Of a stretch of DNA of 64,000 bases, positions 16,632 to 48,202 are shown piece by piece (within the stretch, counting starts at the first letter, position 1; every line of letters begins with the position of its first letter). Under the pieces are notes generated by a model that was not told the DNA's origin, did not search any database, and worked only from the letters and a program-made list of their open reading frames with translations. Made by a program: the position numbers and the translations under genes. The DNA is taken from the NCBI RefSeq assembly GCF_017352155.2, contig NZ_CP071462.1, positions 744,001-808,000 of the forward strand, given 5' to 3'. Source of the DNA: Haloterrigena alkaliphila. Its GTDB lineage: Archaea; Halobacteriota; Halobacteria; Halobacteriales; Natrialbaceae.

Positions 16632-17172
16632 TCGCGGTGTGAGTGCGGGAGTTCCGGTCGGTGTTCGTTTCTCGACGGTACTATTTCGGTAGCCCCGATA
16701 CTGCTGTTTCGGTAGTCCCGACGCGGCCATCGTTCCTCAGTAGTGCCGGTCGTTTCTCGGGCGAACGCTCGTCATCAATTCAGTGACGAACGCGGAGACG
16801 CCGGATGACGAACGGAGAGACACACCCCGCGTTGCCGCTGTATGGGTCGAGCGCGAAAGGGGCTTTCACCGTGTTACTCGTCGCAGCGTAGGCGATGCTG
16901 GGAGCGAACGAGAACGGTCGAAGAGGACCCGAGAGACGAAGAGAGACGGAATCAAAAAGCGTCTTGCTACCGTGGCAACAGGGAGTGGTCACGTCCTCCC
17001 CAGCCGATTCGCTCGTTCACTTCGTTCACTCGCTCATCCCTCGCGCGACTTTGAACTGCGCCTCTCCTCCGTTCGGCGCAGTTCGGCACGCGCCACCGCA
17101 TACCGGCGGCAGTCGACGCAACGCATCAGCAGTGGATTTGCGCGAAAATTTCGAACGGACTACGTTCCGATC
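16632..17172. other. Gene-free stretch with two intergenic repeats
   Basis: No gene is supported in these 540 bases. They hold a short direct repeat (TTTCGGTAG-CCCCGATACTG and TTTCGGTAGTCCCG, about 16684-16720), the motif AAGGGGCTTTCACCGTGTTA (16857 onward) shared with the element at 15208, and copy A of the hairpin element described at 16966-17100. Confidence 0.6.
16966..17100 (+). repeat. Hairpin intergenic element, copy A
   Basis: Conserved blocks are TGCTACCGTGGCAAC, CCTCCCCAGCCGATTCGCTC (16995 onward), CGCTCATCCCTCGCGC and a right end GCGCCACCGCA. Between the last two blocks is a perfect 10-bp hairpin, GAACTGCGCC (17053-17062) and GGCGCAGTTC (17075-17084). Copies B and C near 48 kb share the blocks but have unrelated hairpin sequences. 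Confidence 0.85.
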
Positions 17173-42861: not shown

Positions 42862-43195
42862 ACGCGGTTGAAATAGGAGTTATCGCTGCAGGGTGTCACC
42901 CTTTGCAGTGCGTTCTACCGGGAGAAACGGACGCCTCTGGTGGTCCGAACGTTCGGACTGTCGGCATACAGCGTGAGCCGGTTAGACAGTTGTCTGTCGG
43001 GGTTTAAGACCGGCGAAATGAACTAAGGGAAACCGCGTATAGCTGATATCAGTTATGTGGCCTCGGCACTCATAGGGCTCGTCACTACCGGGTGCCGAGT
43101 CCGGCTCGGAGCGAGTGAATCGTCATCGGCCATGCGAGACTAGCCCTGCCGCTCCCAAGACGGTTTGGATCAGTATCGAAAATGCCGCTCGAGAG
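42862..43195. other. Palindrome-rich stretch after the HEPN gene
   Basis: No gene is supported. It holds AGGGTGTCACCCT (about 42889-42902) flanked by TGCAG-type arms, a perfect 16-bp palindrome GTCCGAACGTTCGGAC (42943-42958), AGACA-GT-TGTCT (42984-42995), CTGATATCAG (43042-43051), and a hairpin CTCGGCAC (43062-43069) with GTGCCGAG (43092-43099). The first may be the HEPN terminator; the others suggest the edge of a mobile element. Confidence 0.65.
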
Positions 43196-46902: not shown

Positions 46903-47796
46903 ATGAGTCTGGACCACGCCGTCGACCTCGAGTTGCCGACCGCGGAGGCGGCCGAACCCGCCGACCTCGAGCACGGCTCGATCTTCTTCGTCGGAACGGC
47001 CACGGTGATCCTCGAGTACGCCGGCTTCACGATCCTCACGGATCCGAACTTCCTCCACAGCGCCGATCACGTCCACCTGGGCTACGGGATCAAATCCCGC
47101 CGGCGGACCGATCCCGCCCTCGAGATCGAGGATCTGCCGCCGATCGACTTCGTCCTCCTCTCGCACTACCACGGCGACCACTTCGATCGGGTGGCGGAGG
47201 CGAAACTCGACAAAGATCTGCCGATCGTCACGACCCCGCACGCGGCGAGCGAACTGGCCGACAAGGGCTTTCGCGAGACCCGTCCGCTCGAGACGTGGGA
47301 CGAATGTCGGATCCGGAAGGGCGAGGCCGAACTGACGATCACCGCGATGCCCGGCCGTCACGGCCCGCCAGTCCTCTCGAAGGGGCTGCCGCCGGTGATG
47401 GGCAGCATGCTCGAGTTCCGACCCGCCGACGAGGAGGCGCACCCCGATGATCCGCCGCTGCTCCGGCTGTATATCTCGGGCGACACGCTCGTCTACGACG
47501 CCCTCGAGGAGATCCCCGAGCGCTACCCCGAAATCGACCTCGCCCTGCTCCATCTGGGCGGGACGCGGGTTCTGGGCGTCCTCCTGACGATGGACGCCGC
47601 GCAGGGCGTCGAGGCGGTGGATCTGATCGACGCCGACACCGCGATTCCGATCCACTACAACGACTACGAGGTGTTCCGGTCGCCGCTGTCGAACTTCAAG
47701 CAGGCGATCCGGAAGGCGGGGCTCGAGGACAAGGTAGAGTACCTCGAGCACGGCGAGACGTTCGAGTTCGAATCGTCGTCGAACCGTCGCAGCTAG
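46903..47796 (+). CDS. UlaG-like MBL-fold hydrolase
   Basis: The 297-residue protein has the metal-ligand motif SHYHGDHFD (His88, His90, Asp92, His93), PGRHGPPVL and YISGDTLVYDA, and ends IPIHYNDYEVF. This order matches the UlaG/RNase Z-like branch of the metallo-beta-lactamase fold, which includes lactonases. The substrate is unknown. It lies divergent from the thioredoxin reductase-like gene with about 145 bases between starts. An AT-richer box (GGTTGAAAC, about 46871-46879) is 27-30 bases upstream. Confidence 0.88.
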   Translation: MSLDHAVDLELPTAEAAEPADLEHGSIFFVGTATVILEYAGFTILTDPNFLHSADHVHLGYGIKSRRRTDPALEIEDLPPIDFVLLSHYHGDHFDRVAEAKLDKDLPIVTTPHAASELADKGFRETRPLETWDECRIRKGEAELTITAMPGRHGPPVLSKGLPPVMGSMLEFRPADEEAHPDDPPLLRLYISGDTLVYDALEEIPERYPEIDLALLHLGGTRVLGVLLTMDAAQGVEAVDLIDADTAIPIHYNDYEVFRSPLSNFKQAIRKAGLEDKVEYLEHGETFEFESSSNRRS

Positions 47797-47860: not shown

Positions 47861-47998
47861 GTGCGGTGGCGCGCACCGTCGGTCGGCCGAGCGAAGCGAG
47901 GTCGACCGACGACTGCGTGCGAGGGATGAGCGAAGGAACAACGTGACTGAGCGAATCGGCTGGGGAGGGAGTGGCAATCCCCGGTTGCCACGATAGCA
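47861..47998 (-). repeat. Hairpin intergenic element, copy B
   Basis: On the minus strand it reads GCTATCGTGGCAAC, then CCTCCCCAGCCGATTCGCTC, CGCTCATCCCTCGC and the right end GCGCGCCACCGCAC. The central hairpin is CGTCGGTCG (47877-47885) with CGACCGACG (47903-47911), unrelated in sequence to those of copies A and C. Confidence 0.85.
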
Positions 47999-48076
47999 GA
48001 GGCACTACGCTCCGCTCAGTTGATCCCAATACCACCGACGCATTTGATAGCAGGGCCGACGAAGAGCGTCCGACTC

Positions 48077-48202
48077 GTGCTGGCGGCAGGGAATCGCCAC
48101 ACCCTCCCCAGCCGATTCGCTCCCTTCGGTCGCTCATCCCTCGCGCAGTTTCGAACCACAGTTCGCTGCCCGCTCACTGTGGTTCAGCGCGCGCCACCGC
48201 AC
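48077..48202 (+). repeat. Hairpin intergenic element, copy C
   Basis: It shares CCTCCCCAGCCGATTCGCTC, CGCTCATCCCTCGCGC and the right end GCGCGCCACCGCAC with copies A and B. The central hairpin is GAACCACAG (48153-48161) with CTGTGGTTC (48177-48185). Confidence 0.85.

Follow-up and report, generated by a model that had tools for sequence, protein, structure and literature searches.

Repeat Copies in the Analysed Region

The analysed window is a 64,000-nt stretch of the Haloterrigena alkaliphila chromosome (NZ_CP071462.1, positions 744,001 to 808,000), and it contains three copies (A, B and C) of a non-coding repeat. In the initial annotation, they were described as sharing conserved blocks separated by a hairpin of unrelated sequence in each copy. 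The blocks and hairpins were confirmed, with the arms GAACTGCGCC/GGCGCAGTTC in copy A, CGTCGGTCG/CGACCGACG in copy B (on the + strand) and GAACCACAG/CTGTGGTTC in copy C. Two features were added: a second, smaller hairpin that also varied but stayed paired, and the finding that the structurally relevant strand is the reverse complement of the one read originally. This strand is referred to below as the purine strand.

A covariance model placed the copies at slightly different positions, making them slightly longer than first annotated. The 147-position core of copy A was located at 16954-17099 on the - strand (760954-761099 of the main chromosome, contig C1, 142 bits), with the smaller hairpin, H2, at 17007-17037 and the larger hairpin, H3, with 10-bp arms, at 17053-17084 (both -). 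H2 of copy A had the long form, AT GA GC GA GT GA AC GAA GT GA AC GA GC GA AT. Copy B encompassed 47863-48009 on the + strand (791863-792009, 138 bits), with H3 (9-bp arms) at 47877-47911 and the long-form H2 (core AG GA AC AAC GT GA CT) at 47926-47956, both +. Copy C was found at 48061-48200 on the - strand (792061-792200, 116 bits), with the short-form H2 (core CC GAA GG) at 48115-48137 and H3 (9-bp arms) at 48153-48185, both -. Copies B and C formed an inverted doublet between convergent genes ending at 47796 and 48243. The element had no Rfam match at gathering scores in the window and none at E up to 1 on the copies in the loci L123, L124 and L128. An Rfam match elsewhere in the window was to the sR-tMet C/D-box RNA (43059-43131, - strand, 65.7 bits).

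Copy Number and Distribution

To check if the three copies are members of a larger family, the host genome was searched with the conserved blocks. The two outer blocks with a short gap between them occurred 63 times exactly and never when the pattern was read backwards. A covariance model built from 27 copies revealed at least 148 copies, which is a lower limit as only 150 candidates were scored. All of them were located on contig C1 (3.82 Mb) and none on the two smaller contigs, C2 and C3, although these make up about 10.5% of the genome. Matches were found in 70 of 116 sampled genomes of the class, but the copy number was patchy. Several congeneric genomes had 27 or more copies (27 being the scoring limit), whereas two genomes of the same genus (G164 and G193), 99-100% complete, had no copy at E <= 0.001. 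Only four plasmid records, all large plasmids, and no phage or viral contig had a match.

Structure of the Element

Read on the purine strand, the core of about 147 nt consists of block B1 (GCGGTGGCGCGCGC), hairpin H3, block B2 (GCGAGGGATGAGCGA), hairpin H2, block B3 (GAGCGAATCGGCTGGGGAGG) and a small GTGG/CCAC hairpin. H3 is the hairpin of the initial annotation, whereas H2 was not reported there. H2 reads AT GA GC GA p1p2 [GA p3p4] NNN [p4'p3' GA] p2'p1' GA GC GA AT and is thus a ladder, in which two-base Watson-Crick steps alternate with tandem G.A pairs. Among the 63 exact copies in the host, 33 had the long form and 20 the short form. The two GA steps were intact in 32 of 33 long ones and the variable pairs changed on both sides. 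H3 showed the same grammar at its tip: stem, GA, two base pairs, loop, two base pairs, GA, stem. The G.A tandems lay in symmetric 2 x 2 positions between Watson-Crick steps and not next to a three-nucleotide bulge, as would be expected for a kink-turn RNA. In some copies, including the one at 240398-240604 of contig C1 (about 2500-2710 of locus L109), one on the reverse strand of locus L301 and about 18 copies near 200 nt in the host, the tip of H2 carried a 50-100 nt insert made of two or more further perfect hairpins, giving a branched structure inside the ladder.

To verify the pairing, H3 arms were compared within and between copies. For 115 copies with a parsable large hairpin (from the host genome and genus relatives), the arms were 88.7% Watson-Crick, against 40.2 +/- 1.9% when 5' arms were matched to 3' arms of other copies; 86 of the 115 5' arms were distinct. 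Outside the host's own family, 101 distinct H2 cores from other haloarchaeal families showed 84% pairing of the outer two base pairs against 35 +/- 4% when shuffled, GA steps in 35 of 37 long cores and GNA loops in 35 of 49. The proposal in the initial annotation, a repeat family whose hairpin changes sequence but keeps pairing, with structure selected or generated as RNA or cruciform DNA, was therefore supported, as at least 148 copies exist and nearly all parsable ones have the paired stem. Of the two options, the evidence favours DNA over RNA, and single-stranded DNA rather than a symmetric cruciform.

Strand Specificity and the Nature of the Folded Molecule

Mismatches in the stems were strongly one-sided. 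Among distinct arms, the purine strand showed GT 42, GA 36 and GG 18, but only the complementary AC 5, CT 6 and CC 1 (96 against 12, binomial p 2e-17), while Watson-Crick pairs were balanced (CG 338, GC 315). If both strands mattered equally, or neither, each mismatch would be as common as its complement, so the constraint acts on one strand. Four-base H3 loops were GNNA in 42 of 59 cases, of which 29 were GNYA and 13 GNRA. H2 triloops were GNA in 76 of 113 cases and further H2 loops, in 14-nt cores, read gCCTGc or gCTTGc. GNA and CTTG are the caps described for Streptomyces telomere DNA hairpins (PMC7205883). G.G, G.T and G.A are expected to be the most stable mismatches in DNA, and GNA/GNNA caps should also be stable there, whereas RNA stems typically favour G.U and GNRA. 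The predominance of GNNA over GNRA and the lack of dominance of G.T over G.A and G.G thus suit folded single-stranded DNA better than RNA, although, apart from the caps in PMC7205883, this argument relies on general expectations about DNA thermodynamics.

An alternative explanation is that the element acts as RNA, either as a multicopy small non-coding RNA or as a structured 3' UTR/terminator element in the transcript of the purine strand. The one-strand pairing is compatible with this possibility, and tandem G.A pairs are probably stable in RNA too. The purine strand was predicted to be more stable than the other in 52 of 52 copies, but for DNA and RNA energy parameters alike, so this test did not separate the two and RNA is not excluded. 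Copies were extragenic and, of 122 with gene calls, 53 lay between convergent genes and 13 between divergent ones, which indicates enrichment downstream of genes and avoidance of promoters. However, tandem contexts split evenly into 30 sense and 26 antisense, doublets also occurred in tandem regions, where one copy must be antisense, and no conserved promoter-like signal was detected upstream of the 5' end. Together with the loops, the mismatches and the lack of an Rfam match, these data make the RNA explanation unlikely.

Arrangement, Mobility and Persistence of the Copies

Neighbouring copies within 600 bp were arranged as inverted doublets with their H1 ends facing in 24 of 30 cases. Doublets recurred in Natrinema, Haladaptatus and other genera. 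Some copies were recent duplicates, sharing 203 to 335 nt at 89-94% identity between different sites, in one case (1448529 and 171756) across a whole doublet. The youngest copies shared about 50 nt more on each side, with weak inverted similarity (GTTCAGT/ACTGAAC), although in the comparison of these copies the ends varied and no target duplication was seen. One relative locus (L093) carried an element absent from this locus in the host.

At the same time, many copies were located at orthologous loci in other species of the genus. In 14 orthologous pairs, the blocks were 89, 96 and 95% identical, the immediate flanks 57-63%, H3 69% and H2 51%, yet the stems remained paired in both partners. 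The pairs were chosen through matches to the model, so the block conservation is partly ascertained. The B/C doublet was found at the same locus, with different stems, in genome G240, Natrinema zhouii and N. versiforme.

Symmetric changes in the hairpins were also observed. Two copies about 91% identical overall (2396143 and 1416343) had a 15-nt and a 7-nt H2 core, and the orthologue of copy C in locus L079 gained or lost one rung on both arms. Such changes are hard to explain by single substitutions and could suggest that the hairpins are made and re-perfected by mutation, through template switching or hairpin-directed gene conversion copying one arm onto the other, without selection on structure. 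However, arm-copying would not by itself give the strand asymmetry of mismatches, the GNA/GNNA loop preference or the fixed tandem G.A steps. As a complete explanation, it seems very unlikely, but it may still supply part of the variation.

Another possibility is that the element is a host-maintained chromosomal site, for example a gyrase or nucleoid-protein site or a topological insulator between convergent genes, as proposed for E. coli BIMEs, with old copies kept by selection rather than moved. The chromosome-only distribution in the host, the preference for convergent regions, the long persistence at orthologous loci with re-paired stems and the scarcity of plasmid and absence of viral matches agree with this view. 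However, the lack of copies in two complete genomes of a genus whose other members have many indicates no essential role, some copies are recent duplicates at new sites, the locus L093 shows presence/absence relative to the host and no binding protein is known. This explanation is considered doubtful, although it does not exclude the one favoured below.

Search for a Transposition Partner

No partner responsible for transposition was found. The host carries one intact IS200/IS605-type pair (Y1 transposase plus TnpB-like gene; L070, 1480-3104) and one with a stop inside the Y1 gene (L071/L072), and no block of the element was present in L070 or L071. The Y1 transposase (PF01797) was absent from 7 of 12 high-copy genomes and present in 8 of 10 genomes with no or negligible copies. 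No gene family recurred next to the copies, as none was found among 190 adjacent proteins beyond small generic families, and no resident transposon carried the outer flanks.

Interpretation and Comparison with Known Elements

What is conserved is the set of blocks plus the fold of one strand: short Watson-Crick steps, tandem G.A pairs and GNA, GNNA or CNNG caps. The explanation considered somewhat more likely than not is that the copies belong to a dispersed, non-coding, REPIN-like DNA element of haloarchaea, propagated and maintained as a single-strand DNA fold by an unidentified partner, while any host function is unproven. The folding molecule may be single-stranded DNA exposed during replication, recombination or supercoil-driven extrusion. 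An unidentified protein may recognise the blocks plus the fold, not the stem sequence, and copy or maintain the element, and G.T, G.A and G.G intermediates may let the stems drift in pairs. Exact ends and target duplication were not resolved, and the elements could also be maintained by gene conversion rather than mobility. A more speculative and rather unlikely possibility is a categorically new class of chromosomal element, inherited and recognised as a single-stranded DNA fold of alternating Watson-Crick and sheared G.A steps, with its own unknown archaeal protein, and maintained across the class Halobacteria for a host role such as controlling supercoiling or recombination between convergent genes.

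The element resembles bacterial REP/REPIN elements and BIMEs (RAYT, TnpA-REP) in its high extragenic copy number, inverted doublets, inferred strand-specific fold of single-stranded DNA, compensatory changes in the spacer hairpin and long persistence on the chromosome (PMC3116915, PMC8266576). It differs from them in its length of about 147 nt with two variable hairpins instead of a 20-40 bp palindrome, the tandem G.A ladder, the lack of a GTAG or CGTC tag in the consensus or invariant columns and the absence of the Y1 transposase from most high-copy genomes, and was therefore not classified as a member. It would be a multi-family archaeal counterpart of REP/REPIN elements without the known transposase and an unusually clean natural record of DNA structure under selection, and it explains a large share of conserved intergenic DNA left blank by annotation in these genomes. 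No description of the family was found in the open-licence literature searched; REPs in archaea are reported by RepRanger (PMC12306157), but its main text contains no word beginning with Halo or Natri.

Palindrome-associated transposable elements (PATEs) and small mobile repeats of Haloquadratum are also short non-coding haloarchaeal repeats, PATEs having near-terminal palindromes (PMC3119063). However, PATE palindromes match IS605-type transposons, whereas the two IS605-type loci of the host carry none of the element and its stems vary from copy to copy. Integron attC sites likewise appear to be conserved in folded-strand structure more than in sequence (archaeal integrons: PMC9668308), but the copies described here are not in cassette arrays and are single or inverted pairs. 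Streptomyces telomere palindromes share with H2 the two kinds of cap, GNA (sheared G.A) and CTTG (PMC7205883), but they are chromosome ends bound by telomere proteins and not dispersed internal repeats. Free-standing GA-ladder hairpins (stem, GAACGGAGTGA-type tip, stem), such as AGGTGCGAACGGAGTGAGCACCT in the loci L045 and L031, were also detected outside the element: 15 in 104 kb of the host's intergenic DNA against 0-5 for most control dinucleotides, so the ladder may be a wider haloarchaeal motif.
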